Shown here in pieces: positions 2,333 to 58,531 of a stretch of DNA of 64,000 nt. Position numbers and translations under genes: made by a program. Position 1 is the first letter of the stretch. Every line of letters begins with the position of its first letter. This stretch comes from Bacteroidota bacterium (GTDB taxonomy: Bacteria > Bacteroidota > Ignavibacteria > Palsa-1295): NCBI GenBank assembly GCA_018266755.1, contig JAFDZW010000005.1, positions 837,233 to 901,232 of the forward strand, given 5' to 3'. Under the pieces are notes generated by a model. That model saw nothing but the letters and a program-made list of their open reading frames with translations, did no database searches and had not been told where the DNA came from.

Positions 2333-3760
2333 TCAATGTTTGGAAGAGGCCCGACGGGAACGTCGGGCCTTTTTTTCTATCGCTTCTTGGAGCAGTATGC
2401 CAAGCGACGGATGGGTGTGTAGTCGGTGTGCAAAGACGTCACGAACGAGTTCGGAATCGGGATTGCCGGAAATCACATCCTTCAATGCATAGAACCCGTA
2501 TACTTCATCTTCACCGGTCTTGAGATTCATTCCGCGACGGCTCATATGCTTGATCGCCCGCTCGACAAGTTTTTCAACGTATTCGTCCTCGCTATCGTCG
2601 AATAGTTCAAGAATAACCTCCATAAACCGAAGAAAGAGATCGACACTGAGCCCATAGGCTGCCCCTGCATTTTGACGCTGCGCACGACGCAGCGAACGTC
2701 GTGCATGCTCGAGTTCGTGACGCAACAGATGCATCAGTGTCTCGTACATCGAGCCGGCAGCAGCAATAGGAGACGGCGACACATGCCGATAAGCCGGGAA
2801 ACCGGTTTCAAGGATTTCTTCCGCCATCGTAAATTCACGGATCTCGATCGAGACTCGTAAAAACCGACTCAGGTGAAACGAATATAACGAGAACAACCGA
2901 ATGCCGTGCAGCTTCCATTGTTCGCGATACCGCTCATACGCCATACGATAATCGCCTTTGACGAAGGCGACCGCCGCACCGCGCAACTCCAGTTTTTTTC
3001 GCTCGCCCTGCGAGAGGCCCGACGGGAGTTTGTCGACCAGTTCGAGGAGCTTGTGATTATAGTGTTCCAACTGTTCCGGATCGCTCACGATCGACACATA
3101 AAACATCGAGTAGGCGTAGTAGAGGTAGTATAACGCCGCGATGCTCGTACCGGCCTCGACACGCTCGCGTAAGCAGTCGATCTGGCTGAGCCAATGCATG
3201 TCCCCTTCGGGGCTGCGCTTGCGCTCAGGGTCCAGGATAAATGCATACAGCGATCCGATCAGTTCGTACACCTCTATCAACAATTCTTCCTGCGGACCTT
3301 TCGACACGAGCGTGCGCTCCCACAGTACCAACGCCGTTTTGTATGCACGGCGGCTGAACATGGACGAACTCGTACTGATCATCAGATGAAGCAGGCGTGT
3401 ATAGAAGTCATGACGTTCGAGCTCACTGACGTCTTCACGCTGAATCGCCTGCTCCAAGGTGTGCAAGGCTTTGCGGTAATGCACATCGAGACCTCGGGCG
3501 ACCAACATACCCAACAGATCGAAGCCTCCGCCCGGAGCGAGCGTCTCATAGCATCGCTCCAGCAGCTTCGACTGGACGGCGTATAGATGCGAAGCGGTCA
3601 TCTCGAGGTTCACCGCAGCAGCACGCATCGGCTCTTCGCTTCCAGGATGGTCGAGAATCGCGTGCAGAATCGTTGCTTGCTTGCCGCGTACAGGAATCGC
3701 CGCAAGTTCTTTGCGTTCATCTTCTGAAATTGCAGCAACTAACTCTGTGAGCAGGCTCAT
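2333..3760 (-). CDS. Helical-repeat protein, paralogue P1 of a three-member family
   Basis: The 475-aa protein has no signal peptide or membrane segment and should be cytoplasmic and largely alpha-helical, TPR-like in its central part. It shares a diagnostic N-terminal pattern with genes at 51676 (P2) and 54220 (P3). This is an acidic segment before GKQ (IPVRGKQATILHAIL), then a HLYxxxSxLLERCY element (HLYAVQSKLLERCY) and APGGGFDLLGML. P1 is the most divergent of the three. Its basic tail (KKARRSRRASSKH) is encoded by the terminator of the convergent gene. I recognise no named family, and no function can be assigned. A helical scaffold or regulator is conceivable but unsupported. Confidence 0.8.
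   Translation of the reverse strand: MSLLTELVAAISEDERKELAAIPVRGKQATILHAILDHPGSEEPMRAAAVNLEMTASHLYAVQSKLLERCYETLAPGGGFDLLGMLVARGLDVHYRKALHTLEQAIQREDVSELERHDFYTRLLHLMISTSSSMFSRRAYKTALVLWERTLVSKGPQEELLIEVYELIGSLYAFILDPERKRSPEGDMHWLSQIDCLRERVEAGTSIAALYYLYYAYSMFYVSIVSDPEQLEHYNHKLLELVDKLPSGLSQGERKKLELRGAAVAFVKGDYRMAYERYREQWKLHGIRLFSLYSFHLSRFLRVSIEIREFTMAEEILETGFPAYRHVSPSPIAAAGSMYETLMHLLRHELEHARRSLRRAQRQNAGAAYGLSVDLFLRFMEVILELFDDSEDEYVEKLVERAIKHMSRRGMNLKTGEDEVYGFYALKDVISGNPDSELVRDVFAHRLHTHPSLGILLQEAIEKKARRSRRASSKH
2347..2376 (+). terminator. Rho-independent terminator inside the opposing gene
   Basis: A perfect 10-bp stem (AGGCCCGACG / CGTCGGGCCT) with a GGAA loop is followed by seven T on the plus strand. 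It ends the 54-2321 transcript. It lies wholly within the last codons of the convergent minus-strand gene that stops at 2333. No T-tract follows in the minus direction. Confidence 0.9.
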
Positions 3761-48658: not shown

Positions 48659-51241
48659 TCACCAGAACATCGGCCACTTCGCCGGGTTCGATTCGCTCAT
48701 GAGCTGGTAGATGCAACGGAAGATATCGTCGGTGTTCGGCTTCGAGAAATAGTCTCCGTCGGAGCCATATGCCGGACGGTGCGCCTTCGACGTGATCGTG
48801 AGCGGTGCCGAGTCGAGATGTTTGTACCCTTCCTGCTTTTCCAGCACTTCCTGCAGCATATATGCCGTCGCACCACCGGGCACATCCTCGTCGAGGAAGA
48901 CAATGCGATTGGTCTTGGCGAGCGACTGCGAAATCATTCCATGGCGATCGAACGGAATCAGTGACTGCACGTCGATCAGCTCGACCGAGATACCGAACTT
49001 CGCGAGCTCGGCCACCGCTTCCTGCGCCACGCGACAGCATGCACCGTACGTGACAAGCGTAACGTCCGTTCCTTCGCTCAATACTTCCGGCACACCGAGC
49101 GGAAGTGTGTGCTCTCCGATGTTATCCGGCAGGCGTTCTTTGAGACGGTATCCGTTGAGCACTTCCACAATGAGCGCCGTGTCGTCGGATGCAAGCATTG
49201 TATTGTAAAATCCGGCAGCCTGCGTCATGTTGCGCGGAACCAGCACATACATTCCTCGAAGCGAACCGAGAATCATCCCCATCGGCGAACCGCTATGCCA
49301 TACTCCTTCCAGGCGATGGCCGCGCGTACGAACAATGACCGGCGCCTTCTGCCCGCCCTTGGTGCGCCAGCGGACGGTCGCGAGATCATCCGACATGGTC
49401 TGTAATGCAAACAGCAGGTAATCGAGGTATTGGATCTCGACGATTGGCCGCAAACCACGCATTGCGGCGCCGATGCCCTGCCCGAGGATCGTCGCTTCGC
49501 GGATGCCGGTGTCGGTAATGCGAATCTCGCCGTACTGTTCCTGAATGCCGTCGAAGCCTTTGTTGACGTCGCCGATCTTTCCGATATCCTCGCCGATGGC
49601 GAACACTTTCTGGTCGCGTGCGAACGCAGCATCAAAGCATGCGCGCATGATTTCGCTACCATTGATCGAAGGCGAGGCATCGGTAAACATGGGCTTCACT
49701 TCCGGGACAAGCAATGCCGATTCTGTCGACTCGCTATAGAGTTGCGATGTGTACTCGTCTTCTGCGCGGGCGATACGAGAAGCAACCCAGGCTTTTAACG
49801 TGGTGCCTGCCTGACTCGGCTCGATATTCCCGAGTCGTATTCCCTTGCGCGCCGCTTCAAGCACATCGCGGTGCAACGGTTCGCGAATGGCGTCAAGCTC
49901 CTGCTTCACTTTCAGTACTTCAGCGCCAAGCGATACTTCACTCGCAAGCTCGCCAAGCGTCGCGCTCACCGCCACGAGATCCGTACGGATGGGAGCAAGA
50001 AATGCTTCCCATGCGGCTGCCTTTGCAGCATTGACGATCTCGTCGTCCTCTTTGTCGATGGCATCGAGTTGCTCTGCCGTCGCAACCGAAGTTGAGATCA
50101 TCCACTCACGCATCTTGCGCACACAATCGTGCTCCTCTTCCCATTTCAGACGCTCTTTCGACTTGTAGCGCTCGTGCGAGCCCGACGTGGAGTGGCCCTG
50201 CGGCTGGGTAAGTTCATTCACATGGATTAGCGCGGGTATATGTCGCTTGCGAACGTCAGCGACGACCGCTTCGTATGCATTGCAGAGGGCGGCGTAGTCC
50301 CATCCCTTTACAACGCGAATGATGTATCCTTCGCCATTCTCCTCGCGGAAGCCGTCGAGAATCTTGGAAATAGACTGCTTCGTCGTTTGATACGCAGCTG
50401 GGACGGAAATGCCATACTCGTCATCCCATACGGAAATTACCATCGGGACCTTCAGTACGCCTGCCGCATTGATCGATTCCCAGAACAACCCTTCGGACGT
50501 GCTCGCATTACCGATCGTACCGAACGCAACCTCATTGCCTTTGCGTGAGAAGTTCGTAAGCGAATGTAGATCCTTGTTATTGCGAAAAAGCTTCGACGCG
50601 TAGGCAAGTCCCACCAGACGCGGCATTTGTCCGCCGGTTGGTGAAATGTCGGCTGACGAATTCTTGATCTTCGTCAGATCGCGCCATGATCCGTCCTCAT
50701 TGAGCGAGCGCGTAGCAAAATGGCCGTTCATCATGCGGCCGGCGGATGCGGGCTCTGCGTTGACGTCCGGATGAGCGTAGAGCTGGGCGAAAAACTCCTG
50801 GATCGTGCTCGTACCGGTCGCAAACATAAACGTTTGGTCACGGTAATAACCCGAGCGCCAGTCGCCCTCGCGAAATGCTTTGGCCATGGCGATCTGTGGG
50901 ACTTCCTTGCCGTCCCCGAAGATGCCGAACTTTGCCTTGCCGGTGAGCACCTCGCGCCGGCCGAGCACACTCGCCAACCGCGACTGGTGTGCGATGCGGT
51001 AATCGGCGATGATCTGCTCGTGCGTATAGGATACCGTCTGCGGCGCAGCGACAGCCGGGGATTTGAGGACAATATCCTTCACGGAAACGGCCGGTTTGCT
51101 AACCGAGCGTTTCGCGTACGCAGGTTTCCCGAAGCCCGGTTTAAAGTTATCCGTCTTCCCGAATCCCTTTTTCCCATATCCTTTCTTCTCGAAGCCCTTC
51201 TTTTTGATGGTCAACTTCGGCGGCGCAAGCTTTTTTGCCAT
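48659..51241 (-). CDS. Fused alpha-beta 2-oxoacid dehydrogenase E1
   Basis: The 860-aa protein joins an E1-alpha-like domain (about 70-440; thiamine diphosphate region GTIGNASTSEGLF, then VWDDEYGISVP) to an E1-beta domain (about 530-860; IGEDIGKIGDVNKGFDGIQ, LQTMSDDLATVRWRT, FLDEDVPGGATAYM). It should decarboxylate a 2-oxoacid for an E2/E3 complex; pyruvate or branched-chain acids are possible. The alpha GDG-like motif reads GNA, a small departure from fused relatives as I remember them. An unusual ~55-residue Lys/Gly/Phe-rich N-terminal extension (KKGFEKKGYGKKGFGK) precedes it. Confidence 0.93.
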   Translation of the reverse strand: MAKKLAPPKLTIKKKGFEKKGYGKKGFGKTDNFKPGFGKPAYAKRSVSKPAVSVKDIVLKSPAVAAPQTVSYTHEQIIADYRIAHQSRLASVLGRREVLTGKAKFGIFGDGKEVPQIAMAKAFREGDWRSGYYRDQTFMFATGTSTIQEFFAQLYAHPDVNAEPASAGRMMNGHFATRSLNEDGSWRDLTKIKNSSADISPTGGQMPRLVGLAYASKLFRNNKDLHSLTNFSRKGNEVAFGTIGNASTSEGLFWESINAAGVLKVPMVISVWDDEYGISVPAAYQTTKQSISKILDGFREENGEGYIIRVVKGWDYAALCNAYEAVVADVRKRHIPALIHVNELTQPQGHSTSGSHERYKSKERLKWEEEHDCVRKMREWMISTSVATAEQLDAIDKEDDEIVNAAKAAAWEAFLAPIRTDLVAVSATLGELASEVSLGAEVLKVKQELDAIREPLHRDVLEAARKGIRLGNIEPSQAGTTLKAWVASRIARAEDEYTSQLYSESTESALLVPEVKPMFTDASPSINGSEIMRACFDAAFARDQKVFAIGEDIGKIGDVNKGFDGIQEQYGEIRITDTGIREATILGQGIGAAMRGLRPIVEIQYLDYLLFALQTMSDDLATVRWRTKGGQKAPVIVRTRGHRLEGVWHSGSPMGMILGSLRGMYVLVPRNMTQAAGFYNTMLASDDTALIVEVLNGYRLKERLPDNIGEHTLPLGVPEVLSEGTDVTLVTYGACCRVAQEAVAELAKFGISVELIDVQSLIPFDRHGMISQSLAKTNRIVFLDEDVPGGATAYMLQEVLEKQEGYKHLDSAPLTITSKAHRPAYGSDGDYFSKPNTDDIFRCIYQLMSESNPAKWPMFW

Positions 51242-51318
51242 GTCCAACAATCGCTACAAATTTGCGACGTGGTAACAAAAAACATGCGAGTTCTATTCGC
51301 GGTATCCTGTGGTAGGTA

Positions 51319-51675: not shown

Positions 51676-53094
51676 TTAGTCGAAGCTTGTAGCAGATGCA
51701 ATCGTCTTGCAAACGTGCTCCAACAACGTACCGTACATACCAAATCTTCCGCCGGTGTAGAGTGCGTACGCCTCCACTAGTTCCGGTGGAACCGGGGTAC
51801 CGTAGGCCGCGAAGCGGACGAATGCGCGCAACACCAGGAAATATTTGCCGGCGTTATACCGTGAAACGCCCAAATGCTTCGACCGCAGAAACTGTTGCGC
51901 TCGGTTACACAGGACATCGACCATCTGAATATCGCCGCGCAGCGCGAACGATGCACACTCGACCATGCGGATACGCAGATCGGTGAACATACTCTGTTTC
52001 ATCTTCGAGTTCATTCCGTAGGCCTCATTCAAATATGGCAACACCTCGGCGGGTCTCCCTTGCAGATTCAGTAGTAGTGCGCGTATGAGTGCAATATTCG
52101 CCGATGCGTAATTCGGTAATACATAGGGTAGAAACACGCAGTGCTCGGAGAGAATCTGTTCTGCCTGCTCGAGTTTCCCATTGACGATCGCGAGTTCTGC
52201 ATAGCGCAAGAGAAAGAACGGCTCGTCCCACAATTCGTGCTTCGCGCCGAGCCTGGTATAGAGCGAGTGATATACTTCGAATGCCTCGGCCGGTTTGCCG
52301 GCGGCCATCAATCCATCGGCCGACAAAAACTCAAGTCGTAGCTGCTCAATTTCGACGAACGGAATATCGATCGTCCGCAATAGCTTGCGGGCTCGTTTGA
52401 GTGAGCCAATATACGCGTCGGCATCGTAATATCTCCAGAAATGCAGATGCGCATGGATCAGTGATTCAAAGTAGAGACAGCGGGTGTCACGCTGTGTCGC
52501 TACCTTCTGCGAGTAGGCAGAAATCATACGTTCGATCGATGCCATCGTCTTGGTTGGATTGGACGTATGTCGCGCAAGAAACGGAAGTTCTGCGGCAAGT
52601 TCGGCGCCTTCGAATACCAACAGTTCTGTACGATCACGTTTGACGGCAACAGCAAACCGCTCGCGGCAGCGTTTGATCAGCGCTTGCTCATGCGGATATC
52701 GCGCAAATCGGTGCAAGAGGATGCTCGCACCGAAATAGAATTCTTGTATGGCATGCTGGTCCTTCGACCGGAGCACCTCGCTTTCGACACGGCGAAACTC
52801 ACCTCGGAAGATCGTCGGTAGCTGTTTGCGAGCAAGCAGGCGCAGCAACGGCAATCCCCCTTCGGGCGCAAATACGCGAATCGCACGCTGCAGTAGTACG
52901 GACGATATTTGATGACGATGAGAAGTCGAAAGCGAGTCGAGCTGGGTATGCTCATACTTTGATCCGCCCTTCACCCGATACACACGCAGCGCCGCTTGCA
53001 GAACCAGGTTCTGCTTTCCTTCCACGATTAGTTCACGAACACGTTCGAGTTCGTCTGGGTACAGGGAATCGATAAACCGCTGCAACTTGAGCAT
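51676..53094 (-). CDS. Helical-repeat protein, paralogue P2
   Basis: ATG 53094 gives 472 aa and aligns with P1 and P3: MLKLQRFIDSLYPDELERVR, VEGKQNLVLQAAL, HQISSVLLQRAIRVFAPEGG, then LRYAELAIVNGKLEQAEQIL. Near the end is LYTGGRFGMYGTLLEHVC, which matches P3. No signal peptide or membrane helix is seen. The central and C-terminal parts look like helical pairs of TPR type. It is followed by a repeat element and preceded by the YeiH-type transporter gene. Function unknown. Confidence 0.82.
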   Translation of the reverse strand: MLKLQRFIDSLYPDELERVRELIVEGKQNLVLQAALRVYRVKGGSKYEHTQLDSLSTSHRHQISSVLLQRAIRVFAPEGGLPLLRLLARKQLPTIFRGEFRRVESEVLRSKDQHAIQEFYFGASILLHRFARYPHEQALIKRCRERFAVAVKRDRTELLVFEGAELAAELPFLARHTSNPTKTMASIERMISAYSQKVATQRDTRCLYFESLIHAHLHFWRYYDADAYIGSLKRARKLLRTIDIPFVEIEQLRLEFLSADGLMAAGKPAEAFEVYHSLYTRLGAKHELWDEPFFLLRYAELAIVNGKLEQAEQILSEHCVFLPYVLPNYASANIALIRALLLNLQGRPAEVLPYLNEAYGMNSKMKQSMFTDLRIRMVECASFALRGDIQMVDVLCNRAQQFLRSKHLGVSRYNAGKYFLVLRAFVRFAAYGTPVPPELVEAYALYTGGRFGMYGTLLEHVCKTIASATSFD

Positions 53095-53169
53095 AACGAC
53101 GCAGAACGATACATGCAAGTGGGGGGAAAGACATGCATGGCGGATCGGCTGCGGGCAGCGGCAAACCGC

Positions 53170-54123
53170 CTACTGCGCAAAGGCCAAGACGGCCCAAAGG
53201 GAAACGCTACCAATCACAATCCATAACAATACGCCCTCGACGAACGGCCGAATGCCGACGGACTTCAGCGTCTTGCGCGAGAGTCCGCTGCCGATCAAGA
53301 AGAGCGTCAACACCAACCCGGTCTTGGCGGTGGATACAAGACCATCGTAGATCGTCGGCCCGAGGTCGACATACGTCCGCACGACCGAGGCGATCACGAA
53401 TAGGAATATAAAATACGGTATTTTTATCGACTTCTTCGAACTTTTGAATAGGAAGGAGGTCGCAAGCGCGAGCGGCACGATCCAGAGCGCACGTGCAAGT
53501 TTCACGGTGGTTGCGATTTTCAGTGCTTCGTCGCCGAACTTTGCTGCGGCGCCAACGACAGAACTCGTGTCGTGAATCGCAATCGCTGCCCAGATACCGA
53601 ACTGTGTTTGCGTGAGTTGAAAGTAGTGGCCGATGATTGGAAAGATAAACAACGCGATCGAATTCAGAACGAATACCGTCCCGAGCGCCACGGACATTTC
53701 CTTTTCGCCCGCATCCATCACCGGACCGACCGCTGCGATCGCACTTCCTCCGCAAATCGCTGTGCCACTGGAAATGAGGTGCGACGTCTTGGGCTCGATC
53801 TTCAGCCATTTACCGATGAGATACCCAAGGCCGAGCGTCCCGAAGATCGTAACAATCGTGAACAATATTCCCGAACGTCCTGCTTCGAGGACATTTCCAA
53901 AGTTCATACTGAAGCCCAACCCGACGACCGAAACCTGCAACAAGATCTTCGTTGCCTTGCTATTGTGTTTGGCGAATGGATGACCAACTGTCAGCGCGAT
54001 CGCGATGCCAAGAGCCAACGCAATCGGAGGAGATGCCCAAGGAGTCAGACAAAAGACGACGGCAAGAATGAAGATGATCCGGTTCACGGCTCGGGGTGAT
54101 TGGTGATATGGCACTGACAACAC
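53170..54123 (-). CDS. YeiH-family putative sulfate exporter
   Basis: The protein of about 318 aa has some ten membrane helices. It carries YeiH/UPF0324 signatures: GTAICGGSAIAAVGPVMDAG and IAIHDTSSVVGAAAKFGDEA, with a long C-terminal hydrophobic part (LVLTLFLIGSGLSRKTLKSV). The family is described as putative sulfate or anion exporters; direction and substrate are not certain. The start is unclear: GTG codons at 54123, 54114 and 54087 are all possible, and no ATG lies in the relevant region. The region before them holds the P3 terminator. It lies between paralogues P2 and P3. Confidence 0.87.
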   Translation of the reverse strand: MLSVPYHQSPRAVNRIIFILAVVFCLTPWASPPIALALGIAIALTVGHPFAKHNSKATKILLQVSVVGLGFSMNFGNVLEAGRSGILFTIVTIFGTLGLGYLIGKWLKIEPKTSHLISSGTAICGGSAIAAVGPVMDAGEKEMSVALGTVFVLNSIALFIFPIIGHYFQLTQTQFGIWAAIAIHDTSSVVGAAAKFGDEALKIATTVKLARALWIVPLALATSFLFKSSKKSIKIPYFIFLFVIASVVRTYVDLGPTIYDGLVSTAKTGLVLTLFLIGSGLSRKTLKSVGIRPFVEGVLLWIVIGSVSLWAVLAFAQ

Positions 54124-54171
54124 GAATACTGTCGGTTCGGATTCGCTCGGAGCACGAACGACACAAGAAAC

Positions 54172-54200
54172 GGACAGAGGGTGAAGATCACCCCCTGTCC
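54172..54200 (-). terminator. Terminator of paralogue P3
   Basis: A 12-bp stem with one mismatch (GGACAGAGGGTG / CACCCCCTGTCC), 5-nt loop, is followed on the minus strand by GTTTCTTGTG. It lies 19 bp after the P3 stop and argues that the transporter gene starts downstream of it. Confidence 0.65.
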
Positions 54201-54219
54201 GCACATGTGTTGTGCTGCC

Positions 54220-55644
54220 TTAGAGAACGTCCTCGAGCGGGACGTTTAATTTTTTCCGTGCAAATTGCAGGAGTTTACCGAACGCGCCATACTGCGCTGA
54301 GGTGAACAGGGAGTAATACTTGATCCGTTTATCCTTCACACGTTTGCCGAGAGCAACGTACTTCATGAACGATTCCAGGATCAGGAAATAATGTCCTTCC
54401 ACATCTTTCTTCAACGACATCTTTCGCGTACGCAGCAACTGGATGCCGCGCGAGATTACTGCCTTGACCAGGTCGTGCTCGCCGCGCAGCACGTAGCATG
54501 CGCATTCGAGATACCGGCATTGCAGATCGAGCGCGAACGTATAGTTGCGTCGGCTGTTGAACCGCTGTGCCAGTTCGACATAGCGCAACCCTGCATCCGG
54601 ATCGTCCTTGAAGATCGCTAAGAGCGCCAGCAGGATCGCAGCCCGGACCGCACGATGGGTCGGGAAGATGTAAAAGAGATGCTGCAGCCGTTCGTCGATG
54701 ATCTTCTGCGCATGCTCGAATTCGCCGATCGTAATGGCAAACTCGGCAAGGCGAAGATTCAACGCGGAATCGCGCCAGAGCGGGCTATCGGCCGGCAGCT
54801 TCTCGAAGAGCATCACGAACCGTTCGTACGCGCGGCCATACTCGCCGCGAGTCGCGAACAGATCGGCGGACCGCAGTTGCATCGCCACTGCTTCGTCGCG
54901 ATGAACGGCCTGTGTCAGACCCGCAACAACTTCGTTCGCCTTGCGATACCAGCCTTCGACAACTGACGGATCCGTCCCCTTCTCCAATTCGTACGCTGCA
55001 TGCGCAAGCGCAAGATGAAAGCGGCAAAGATCGTCGCCATCCCGATCGATCGCTGCATCGAACTTGACGAGTTTTTCGTCGAGTTTCTCTGCGGACGATT
55101 TGCCCGGAGACGACTTATTCTCGGCAAGCTTTAGCTGGATTGGCGCCATGACCAAATCCATCAACAGCGTTGCCTGTCGCTTATTCTTTGAAAGGCTCAG
55201 GTAGGATTCCCGGCATTGTTCCAGAAGGTCTTCTTCGATCAGACGCGAATCCAAGCGGCCGATGAGCACCACGATCGAGTAGTAATACTCGCGCTGCTGC
55301 TCTACCGTAAGATCCGGAAGAAGTACCTTTTCCTGCTTTCGGAATTCTTCGCGGAAGAGAACCTGCAGGTCCTTCGCCGCTAAGAATTCGAGAATAGCAA
55401 GTCCACCCTCGGGTACGAGCGCCGTGTAACAGCGCTCAAGCATCACCGAGCATATTTCGTACAGATGCTCACGGCTGATATTCGGTAGGAAATTCTCTTC
55501 CGAGGCTTTCCCAGTGTCCTGGCGGTACCGCCCAAGTGCAAACTCCAGCACCTGTGCTTGTTTACCCACCGCGCGAATAGCTCGGACCCGTCTGAGGTCC
55601 TCGCCCGTGAGACTGTCGACCAGTCTAAATAGTTTTTGTGACAA
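54220..55644 (-). CDS. Helical-repeat protein, paralogue P3
   Basis: A TTG at 55644 gives 474 aa (SQKLFRLVDSLTGEDLRRVR). This start is chosen because it aligns with P1 and P2 and because a TTG/TATATTTG promoter lies at 55682-55711, inside the longer open frame. Shared motifs are AVGKQAQVLEFALGRY, HLYEICSVMLERCYTALVP, RLAEFAITIGEFEHAQKI and SLFTSAQYGAFGKLLQFA. It has no signal peptide and is probably a TPR-like cytoplasmic protein. It lies upstream of the transporter gene but is separated from it by a terminator. Function unknown. Confidence 0.82.
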   Translation of the reverse strand: MSQKLFRLVDSLTGEDLRRVRAIRAVGKQAQVLEFALGRYRQDTGKASEENFLPNISREHLYEICSVMLERCYTALVPEGGLAILEFLAAKDLQVLFREEFRKQEKVLLPDLTVEQQREYYYSIVVLIGRLDSRLIEEDLLEQCRESYLSLSKNKRQATLLMDLVMAPIQLKLAENKSSPGKSSAEKLDEKLVKFDAAIDRDGDDLCRFHLALAHAAYELEKGTDPSVVEGWYRKANEVVAGLTQAVHRDEAVAMQLRSADLFATRGEYGRAYERFVMLFEKLPADSPLWRDSALNLRLAEFAITIGEFEHAQKIIDERLQHLFYIFPTHRAVRAAILLALLAIFKDDPDAGLRYVELAQRFNSRRNYTFALDLQCRYLECACYVLRGEHDLVKAVISRGIQLLRTRKMSLKKDVEGHYFLILESFMKYVALGKRVKDKRIKYYSLFTSAQYGAFGKLLQFARKKLNVPLEDVL

Positions 55645-55681
55645 TGTATCCCGTGTAACACCGCCTATTAAGCGGTTATTA

Positions 55682-55711
55682 CAAATATACGAAGAAATCG
55701 CCCGATTCCAA
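55682..55711 (-). promoter_or_regulatory. Bacteroidota-type promoter of P3
   Basis: On the minus strand TTG (55711-55709), a 19-bp spacer and TATATTTG (55689-55682) match the -33/-7 consensus. The transcript should start near 55675, about 30 nt before the TTG start at 55644. Confidence 0.7.
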
Positions 55712-55750
55712 TACAAAACCGAGAACCTTAGGAATTGGATGAGCGGAATA

Positions 55751-56035
55751 CTACCGCCAGACGATCTCGGTCAACTCGTCCGAACCGGTGAAGGAATGTA
55801 TCTTTTGCAGTATCTCGTGGCTGCGCATCGTCAATTCATATTTCCAGACGGAGGACTCGACACGCACGATGATGGAATTCCCTTTGATGCGTTCGGGGAC
55901 GGCAATGTCGGCAACTTTATCCCCGACGATCTCGCGCCAATGCGTCAGCGCTTCATAGCGCTTCGCATTCTCCTGCAACCCATAGGTATGCAGTGTGCGC
56001 TCGAGAACATCGGTAATCGACTTTGGGAATTTCAT
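55751..56035 (-). CDS. DUF721/DciA-like protein
   Basis: The 94-aa protein matches the DUF721 core: LTHWREIVGDKVADIAVPER, then NSIIVRVESSVWKYELTM and the RSHEILQKIHSF segment. DUF721 includes DciA, a helicase-loading factor in many bacteria, and the family often lies beside recF. Here it follows dnaN and recF on the same strand, with one T9SS gene between. A DNA-replication role is plausible but not shown. A -7-like element lies 11 bp upstream. Confidence 0.85.
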   Translation of the reverse strand: MKFPKSITDVLERTLHTYGLQENAKRYEALTHWREIVGDKVADIAVPERIKGNSIIVRVESSVWKYELTMRSHEILQKIHSFTGSDELTEIVWR

Positions 56036-56045
56036 TGTAGCTATG

Positions 56046-56053
56046 CAAACATA
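56046..56053 (-). promoter_or_regulatory. Possible -7 promoter element of the DUF721 gene
   Basis: TATGTTTG on the minus strand fits TAnnTTTG. The nearest TTG elements are at 11 and 25 bp, outside the best spacing. The implied leader would be only a few nucleotides. Confidence 0.4.
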
Positions 56054-56153
56054 CGAACCCTACACAATGAGCCATAAACAATGCAGACACCACAATTTCA
56101 TCCACTCCGTAAAGTGGCACGGACTCTTAGTCCATGCATCTTTCGTCCGCCGG

Positions 56154-56205
56154 TCATTCTGAGCCCATTCGCTTCGCTCAGTGTAAACTCCGCGAAGAAT
56201 CCCTT
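56154..56205. repeat. Half copy of the TCATTCTGAGC dispersed repeat
   Basis: TCATTCTGAGC and CGCGAAGAATCCCTT match one arm of copies A and B. The arm is interrupted by a short insertion that itself contains GCTTCGCTCAG, part of the opposite arm. No second full arm is present. It lies in the 313-bp gap between the DUF721 gene and the T9SS gene at 56349, which has no other gene. Confidence 0.7.
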
Positions 56206-56243
56206 TCGCAGAGCCGCAGTATCTCCACGCCACGACCCACCCG

Positions 56244-56270
56244 TAGGGGCGAGGCACGCCTCGCCCGCTC
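56244..56270. repeat. Short palindromic intergenic repeat (GTAGGGGCGAGGC type)
   Basis: TAGGGGCGAGG, loop CACG, CCTCGCCC gives an 8-bp stem. Sequences of this type occur as dispersed repeats in many bacteria; that is from memory. Confidence 0.6.
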
Positions 56271-56292
56271 TCAAAGCCACCACCAAACAAAA

Positions 56293-56320
56293 CGGGGCGA
56301 CTCCTCCCGAAGCCGCCCCG
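56293..56320 (-). terminator. Terminator of the T9SS gene at 56349
   Basis: A 10-bp stem with one mismatch (CGGGGCGACT / AGCCGCCCCG), 8-nt loop, is followed on the minus strand by TTTTGTTT. Between it and the gene stop, CGTTACT occurs three times in a short span. Confidence 0.75.
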
Positions 56321-56348
56321 CTCGTTACTCGTTACTTTCGACTCGTTA

Positions 56349-57227
56349 CTACTCCTGATGCACCAGCTTCACCGTCTTCACCTCGCCAAAGCCGGTCGAG
56401 ATGCGGGCGTAGAGTGTACCGCTCGGCAAGCCAGTGCCATCGATGTGGATGGTGTGCAACCCCGGATCGAGCGAGCGGCCCTTGGCGTCGCCCCAGACCA
56501 TTCGGCCCAATGGGTCGTAGATCGAGACGGATACGTAGGTCATGCGGTTGAGCGTGACGTTCAACGAGAGGTCTTGCGTGAACGGATTTGGAGAACTACT
56601 GCATGCACCCAATCCGAGTCCTGCTACAGATGGCAATGGGTCGTTCACCGAACGTGTCAGCAGGAAGCCAAGACCAAGCGTGTCGAGGCTTGGGTCGATC
56701 GTATCTAACTGACCTGGAACGGCGCCGTTGCGAAGCCAGGTATTGTATCGTGCATCGATGTCAAATTGAAGCTGATCGCGTAATCCCCGATCGTCGCAGT
56801 TCGAGTCAGCTATTAAGTACTTTTCGATTGCGATTCCGGCATTTGTGATCCGGTACGGTTCAACGCCGTACGTGCTTGCCATAGTCAGGACGCAGTTACA
56901 GAAGTACTTTGGGTTGGTCTTGTTCAGAAACAGGACGGAGATAAGCCACTCTCGAAATCTATTCCATCTCGTTGAATCATCGAGGTGAATATTGGAGACG
57001 TCCGCCAGTAAATTCGTGAACACATTCGCGGTATGATCGTCAATCGGGGCACACGACTCAACATATCTTGTAAGTGAGTCGAATTGCATTTGATATTCAG
57101 CCTGGGTTTGTGGCTGCCCGGCTTCCCACTGCCTCCACCGCTCGCACGAATCGAGATCCATAGCCGCCACAGATGAGTGGGATGTGGCAAGAATCGTTAA
57201 GAGCAAAACGAATAATGAAATCTTCAT
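56349..57227 (-). CDS. Secreted protein with T9SS sorting domain, between recF and dciA-like gene
   Basis: The 292-aa product has a signal peptide (ISLFVLLLTILATSHSSVAA) and a helical, Cys-containing N-terminal domain (CERWRQWEAGQPQTQ, ESCAPIDDHTANVF). Its T9SS type A tail spans about 205-292 (CSSSPNPFTQDLSLNVTL to VKLVHQE). The N-terminal domain is unrecognised. Its place inside a replication gene cluster is odd. It has its own terminator, and AT-rich DNA separates it from recF. Confidence 0.82.
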   Translation of the reverse strand: MKISLFVLLLTILATSHSSVAAMDLDSCERWRQWEAGQPQTQAEYQMQFDSLTRYVESCAPIDDHTANVFTNLLADVSNIHLDDSTRWNRFREWLISVLFLNKTNPKYFCNCVLTMASTYGVEPYRITNAGIAIEKYLIADSNCDDRGLRDQLQFDIDARYNTWLRNGAVPGQLDTIDPSLDTLGLGFLLTRSVNDPLPSVAGLGLGACSSSPNPFTQDLSLNVTLNRMTYVSVSIYDPLGRMVWGDAKGRSLDPGLHTIHIDGTGLPSGTLYARISTGFGEVKTVKLVHQE

Positions 57228-57382
57228 GGTACTAATGAATATCCCAGATTCTGCGAATCAACTGTAAACGAATATACACTGATTTTTCTATAATTCTTCT
57301 CCCGAACCACCGATAAGGGTTCAAGCTCTCTACCCCGTCGAGAATGTGAGTGTTTCCTACAACGTCAATTCCAATGACGATG

Positions 57383-58531
57383 CTACCATATCTGCCCTTC
57401 GCCGATCCTAATCAGCCGGTTCGCATGATCGCCGCTGGCCAGGAGCGTATCGAACGACTCTCGGGTCGTGGAGGTGATGAATGTTTGCCCGTACTGCGGC
57501 GAGCTGATGAGTTCGAGCAAGCGGGCGGCGCGGTTGGCGTCGAGTTCGGAGAATACGTCGTCGAGCAGGAGGATCGGCGTCTCGCCGGTCGCGTCGCGTA
57601 GGTACTGATACTCCGCAAGCTTCATCGAGACAAGCAACGTCTTGTGCTGCCCCTGCGATGCGAACTTGCGGGCTTCGCGTTTGTCGTCGATCAACATCAT
57701 CAATTCGTCGCGGTGTGCGCCGACGAGTGTCGTACCACGCCGAAGCTCTTCACTTTCACGGCGATCGAACTCGCGTTCGAGCAACGGTCGGAACCCGCCG
57801 AGTTCATACGGCTCTTCAATCCCCAGCGGACAGTACCACAATGATGGTTTCTCGTTGCCTCCGGAAAGCTCGGCATATCGAGCTTCGAGGAAGGGACGAA
57901 ATTCTTCGACAAACGCCGCACGACGGGCCATCACACGCGCAGACCGTTCGGTGACGACTTCGGTCCAGGGTGCAAGCTGTGGCCGTGCAACCGACGCAGG
58001 CGTATTGCGTTGCTTGAATTCGAAGAGCAAGGAGTTGCGATGCTTCACGGCCTTCTTCAACTCGATCTCGTCTTCGAGGTACAGACTGCTTGCCTGCGAG
58101 AGCACCAACGATAGAAATCTGCGACGATCGTCTGGCGAACCGCTGGTGATGATCTTATCGTCGGGCGTCAGTGCGACAACCGGGATGCGCCCGATAAGGT
58201 CGCTCGAACGGCGGAGCTTGTCGGAATTGACGAGAATCGTTTTGCGTGCCGGTGGCCCGGCCGTGTACTCGACCTGAACGCCAAGCGGCACGCCGTTATC
58301 GGACGTAAAGCGGGCGTCGATACTATACATGCTCGCCCCCGTCTGCACGAGCACGGCATCGGCAGCATTCGTAAAACTCTTGGTAAGCGCTGCAACGGAA
58401 AGCGACTCAATGACGGAGGTCTTCCCCGCTCCGTTCGGACCATTAATAATATTGAACTTCGCACCGAACGCCTCGAGCAGCGTATCGCGATGATTACGGA
58501 ACGAGGTGATATGGAGGCTGTCGCATCTCAT
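57383..58531 (-). CDS. recF: DNA replication and repair protein RecF
   Basis: The 382-aa SMC-like ATPase has Walker A GPNGAGKT (residues 31-38), signature FASQGQHKT and Walker B ETPILLLDDVFSELD near residue 325. RecF loads RecA at single-strand gaps with RecO and RecR. It starts 103 bp after dnaN, across a nested palindrome. dnaN-recF adjacency is classical for the origin region. Confidence 0.96.
   Translation of the reverse strand: MRCDSLHITSFRNHRDTLLEAFGAKFNIINGPNGAGKTSVIESLSVAALTKSFTNAADAVLVQTGASMYSIDARFTSDNGVPLGVQVEYTAGPPARKTILVNSDKLRRSSDLIGRIPVVALTPDDKIITSGSPDDRRRFLSLVLSQASSLYLEDEIELKKAVKHRNSLLFEFKQRNTPASVARPQLAPWTEVVTERSARVMARRAAFVEEFRPFLEARYAELSGGNEKPSLWYCPLGIEEPYELGGFRPLLEREFDRRESEELRRGTTLVGAHRDELMMLIDDKREARKFASQGQHKTLLVSMKLAEYQYLRDATGETPILLLDDVFSELDANRAARLLELISSPQYGQTFITSTTRESFDTLLASGDHANRLIRIGEGQIW

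Follow-up and report, generated by a model that had tools for sequence, protein, structure and literature searches.

P1, P2 and P3, three genes on the minus strand of the window (the whole stretch of DNA analysed here, 64,000 nucleotides long), encode paralogues of an undescribed cytoplasmic protein family of about 470 amino acids, in which each protein consists of an all-helical N-terminal module of about 115 residues followed by a TPR solenoid that runs to the C-terminus. Most probably its members serve as local regulators of genes or as adaptors; our literature search found nothing on the family. All three open reading frames were found on the minus strand, where the initial annotation had placed them, and their likely starts were taken from an alignment of 29–30 family members: P1 lies at 2333–3760 (475 aa, ATG start at 3760), P2 at 51676–53094 (about 472 aa, ATG start at 53094, with the reading frame open to a TTG at 53118) and P3 at 54220–55644 (about 474 aa, TTG start at 55644, with the reading frame open to 55716).

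In BLASTP comparisons, P2 and P3 share 30% identity across 464 aa (E 7e-67) and P3 and P1 share 23% identity across 447 aa (E 2e-20), and the match of P2 to P1 is significant only over the N-terminal 109 aa (E 6e-7). The shared N-terminal core that had been described, with its GKQ..., S.LLERCY-like and P.GG..LL motifs, is present, but the homology spans most of the protein and not this core alone. The C-terminal blocks reported for the closer pair are also there, as LYTGGRFGMYGTLL in P2 (51721–51762, minus strand) and LFTSAQYGAFGKLL in P3 (54268–54309, minus strand), while the copy number of three has to be corrected, as the genome holds six copies, three of them beyond P1, P2 and P3. In the tree, the additional copies group apart, in an “RPLQFRG” clade shared with proteins from two further genomes (G002 and G005), P1 pairs with a same-genus protein (support 100/100) in a deep clade apart from P2 and P3, and P2 and P3 form a second clade with another same-genus protein (support 100/100). 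Because the P1 and P2/P3 clades each hold a same-genus relative, the split between them is old, and the synteny with the same-genus genome G001 agrees with this; a recent tandem or local amplification of P1–P3 is ruled out by the tree.

The family is small and patchy in its distribution: a search of 391 genomes from the class yielded full-length members in 13, spread over six families, with the remaining hits being generic TPR fragments, and the relatives’ genomes contain members in 7 of 41 cases (own genome counted). There are up to six copies per genome in the window’s own family, about 5–6 in several relatives and usually one elsewhere, which bears out the lineage-specific expansion that had been proposed. 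A scan of named genomes gave one relative, from a metagenome bin (MAG) labelled “Bacteroidetes bacterium”. A phage, plasmid or defence origin was considered and rejected, with nothing found in phages, plasmids, PHROGs or PADLOC.

The proteins had been thought to lack recognisable domains, and this view has to be abandoned, since the TPR_19 match of P2, the matches to consensus TPRs and the AlphaFold model of P3 all indicate a TPR solenoid body. Residues 270–324 of P2 (52147–52311, minus strand) match Pfam TPR_19 (PF14559) with E 2e-5 and 25.3 bits, which passes the cut-off of 25; P3 gives sub-threshold TPR matches only, P1 gives no TPR match in Pfam at E ≤ 1, and a bpX4 match in P1 was dismissed for falling under its own cut-off. 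Consensus TPR chains match the family weakly, and searches of NCBIfam, PADLOC and PHROGs with the family proteins returned no match. The AlphaFold model of P3, obtained with 30 aligned relatives, is an all-helical solenoid of successive helix pairs (pLDDT 89.4, pTM 0.89). A Foldseek search of the PDB with this model ranked TPR proteins and helical-repeat proteins of related type highest; Rap, NprR and AimR were among the leading matches (e.g., 4gyo, TMt 0.69), and no PDB match reached E ≤ 1e-3. Judged by the repeat matches and the predicted model, P1–P3 belong to the TPR superfamily and most likely do not represent a fold without precedent. They share with TPR_19/TPR_14 proteins the helical-pair solenoid; unlike them, they have strongly diverged repeats, a private N-terminal module and a conserved C-terminal N/E/R set. 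The most conserved polar residues are located in the N-terminal module and in a C-terminal repeat (N387, D/E397, R401, R423). The family proteins carry no signal peptide, as had been noted for the three copies.

The N-terminal module, the family-specific part, occupies 55312–55644 in P3 (about residues 25–135, from the AlphaFold model), 52765–53094 in P2 and 3425–3760 in P1 (the latter two from alignment A9), all on the minus strand. When the N-terminal 116 residues of P3 were modelled alone with AlphaFold, a confident structure made of helices only was obtained (pLDDT 91.2). The module (about 115 aa) has no relative in Pfam, NCBIfam or the PDB, Foldseek found nothing under E 4, and its net charge ranges from -7 to +15 among members. 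An N-terminal HTH was considered and is not supported by Foldseek, Pfam, NCBIfam or hhalign: HTH profiles gave noise-level scores only (HTH_28 E 0.11, HTH_6 E 0.08), and hhalign against sigma region 4, with 19 domains of the same genome as reference, gave a probability of 1.1%, although the best local register falls on the expected helix-turn-helix. The same genome (G000, 3.5 Mb) contains about 30 sigma-70 region 4 matches, and therefore many ECF-type sigma factors for its size.

Around P3 and P2, the minus-strand stretch 51676–58531 holds, head to tail, recF, a secreted protein gene, dciA (DUF721), P3, a Cons_hypoth698 permease gene and P2, where DciA, just upstream of P3 (55754–56035, minus strand, PF05258 E 3e-19), and the YeiH/UPF0324-type permease between P3 and P2 (53170–54204, minus strand, PF03601 E 1e-55) are given as context only. 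A conserved P3-permease-P2 operon was considered and rejected, as the permease of G001 sits elsewhere and not beside the relative. The order dnaN-recF-dciA-member, in which P3 is the member here, is kept in G001. This placement could suggest that P3 or P2 takes part in DNA replication or repair, as the order is common to two genomes of the genus; however, the other members are located in unrelated places and most genomes of the class are without the family, so that we regard such a role as very improbable. On the minus strand at 48662–51250, an 863-aa fused 2-oxoacid dehydrogenase E1 alpha/beta (E1_dh and transketolase domains) is encoded. Upstream of P1 (3895–7311, minus strand) lies a DUF1501 gene with a weak match to the secretion tail PF18962 (below the cut-off), beside a DUF1800-like gene. 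P1 and P3 are separated from the next gene by only 17–18 bp, and the upstream neighbours of P1–P3 are on the same strand and not divergent. In several genomes, secreted proteins starting with a QLDDGxGNYS-like motif are encoded near members (L058 3858–4646, L103 8444–9292, L151 784–2775, L154 470–3379). The motif TATTCTTAC is absent from the window.

Of 28 family members, 9 have an upstream neighbour that is divergent and whose product has a predicted signal peptide, while for other genes the figure is 29 of 290 (Fisher p 0.0025); these counts lack phylogenetic independence, and the predictor used for signal peptides was crude. In five genomes from four families, all within one sister clade (G034, G052, G197, G341 and G374), the gene divergent from the member encodes a DUF6252 lipoprotein; for G374 this assignment is based on similarity between ORFs, as the copy directly beside the member is a fragment and an intact one lies close by. 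In the 70 nt upstream of members, the commonest 7-mer is TTCTTAC, tied with ATTCTTA; TTCTTAC occurs within this distance in 7 of 29 members as against 1 of 244 other genes, and in 500 random draws of 29 upstreams no 7-mer was shared by 7 sequences. In G034, G052, G341 and G374, the same 7-mer sits in the gap that separates the member from the DUF6252 gene, and G197 has a near match, ATCCTTAC. In the relatives’ loci L108–L113, ATTCTTAC lies between family members and the divergent DUF6252 lipoprotein genes, with the element occurring twice in G052, and when DUF6252 genes are not beside a member, the element is upstream in only 1 of 10 cases in this sample. The element and the divergent pairs of the sister clade fit a locally acting, perhaps autoregulated, regulator, and the element could also be a plain, clade-specific promoter. 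It was not found upstream of P1, P2 or P3, and these have no divergent neighbour, and therefore the regulatory reading is extended to them by homology alone.

Taken as a whole, we tentatively favour P1–P3 as cytoplasmic TPR paralogues acting as gene-linked regulators through a partner-binding groove and an N-terminal effector module. The groove of the TPR solenoid would bind a partner protein or peptide, the N-terminal module would act as an effector on nearby transcription units, and in relatives these units would often be genes of secreted or lipid-anchored surface proteins that are transcribed divergently from the member. The lack of a detectable HTH in this module counts against regulation. 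A bolder version, which we consider unlikely, is a new one-component regulator of Bacteroidota, in which an N-terminal effector module of uncharacterised fold would sit on a TPR sensor, autoregulate via a ATTCTTAC operator and control a divergent surface-lipoprotein gene (often DUF6252), with six copies in the lineage. A quite plausible competitor, to which we give somewhat less credence than to the gene-linked regulators, is that P1–P3 are TPR adaptors or scaffolds with no role in gene regulation, which would assemble or chaperone partners, for instance components of the surface or of secretion whose genes lie close by. In favour of this reading, TPR solenoids serve generally as platforms for protein binding, a DNA-binding domain was not found by Foldseek, HMM or hhalign, and both here and in G001 P1 is flanked by a DUF1501 gene and a gene for a secreted protein; against this, the neighbours of P2 and P3 are unrelated to secretion, and regulation is suggested by the divergent gene pairs of relatives and by their conserved intergenic element. 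Of the two roles first suggested, a scaffold or a regulator, the latter is indirectly favoured by gene context in relatives, which supplies the only clue to function, and by the cis-element. What emerges is a TPR family that had escaped annotation, marked by a private N-terminal module and with testable partners (the divergent lipoprotein gene and the short intergenic element); if its members are not regulators, it is one further TPR adaptor family.

A phylum-wide scan gave further TPR-type fragments and a second unnamed family of about 485 aa (L060, L089–L092, L095, L120–L122; alignment A11), which is present in several Bacteroidota families and has its own N-terminal module with a DYLLRNELRLL-type motif. 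From profile similarity, this family is probably related to that of P1–P3: the two are colinear over 391 columns (hhalign E 1e-15), C-terminal module included, whereas the N-terminal modules alone are unmatched (20 columns, probability 29%) and their motifs differ. Two unrelated TPR proteins, used as controls against the P1–P3 family, gave E 9.5e-6 (138 columns) and E 0.075, a comparison that is not fully fair because each control is one sequence only; with one member of the second family taken alone, E was 1e-6.

Among known systems, the RRNPP regulators (Rap, NprR, PlcR, AimR) invite the comparison. Their receptors are described as proteins of 250–500 aa with TPRs and a directly adjacent gene for a secreted propeptide of 10–100 aa (PMC10075063), with an HTH or a three-helix bundle at the N-terminus (PMC9765709). 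P1–P3, with 472–475 aa and a TPR body, match the published receptor signature (PMC10075063), and Rap, NprR and AimR are among the nearest-scoring solved shapes, so that peptide-pheromone receptors of the Rap/NprR/AimR kind had to be weighed. However, no structural match reached E ≤ 1e-3, global TM-scores among TPR solenoids are unspecific, the gaps after P1 and P3 are short, and no credible propeptide gene lies beside the window copies (downstream side scanned, upstream side by inspection); as this gene is missing, P1–P3 are not considered RRNPP systems, and we hold such an identity to be the least probable of the readings discussed. The N-terminal module is helical in P1–P3, with no Foldseek or HMM support for an HTH. 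Thus, P1–P3 differ from RRNPP proteins in having no detectable HTH, no propeptide gene and no significant sequence or structure match, and in their host, which is Bacteroidota and not Bacillota, while they resemble them in size and in the arrangement of an N-terminal helical module followed by a TPR solenoid. By analogy, P1–P3 may work like RRNPP regulators; a regulatory function would make them an architectural counterpart, within Bacteroidota, of the TPR regulators of Bacillota.
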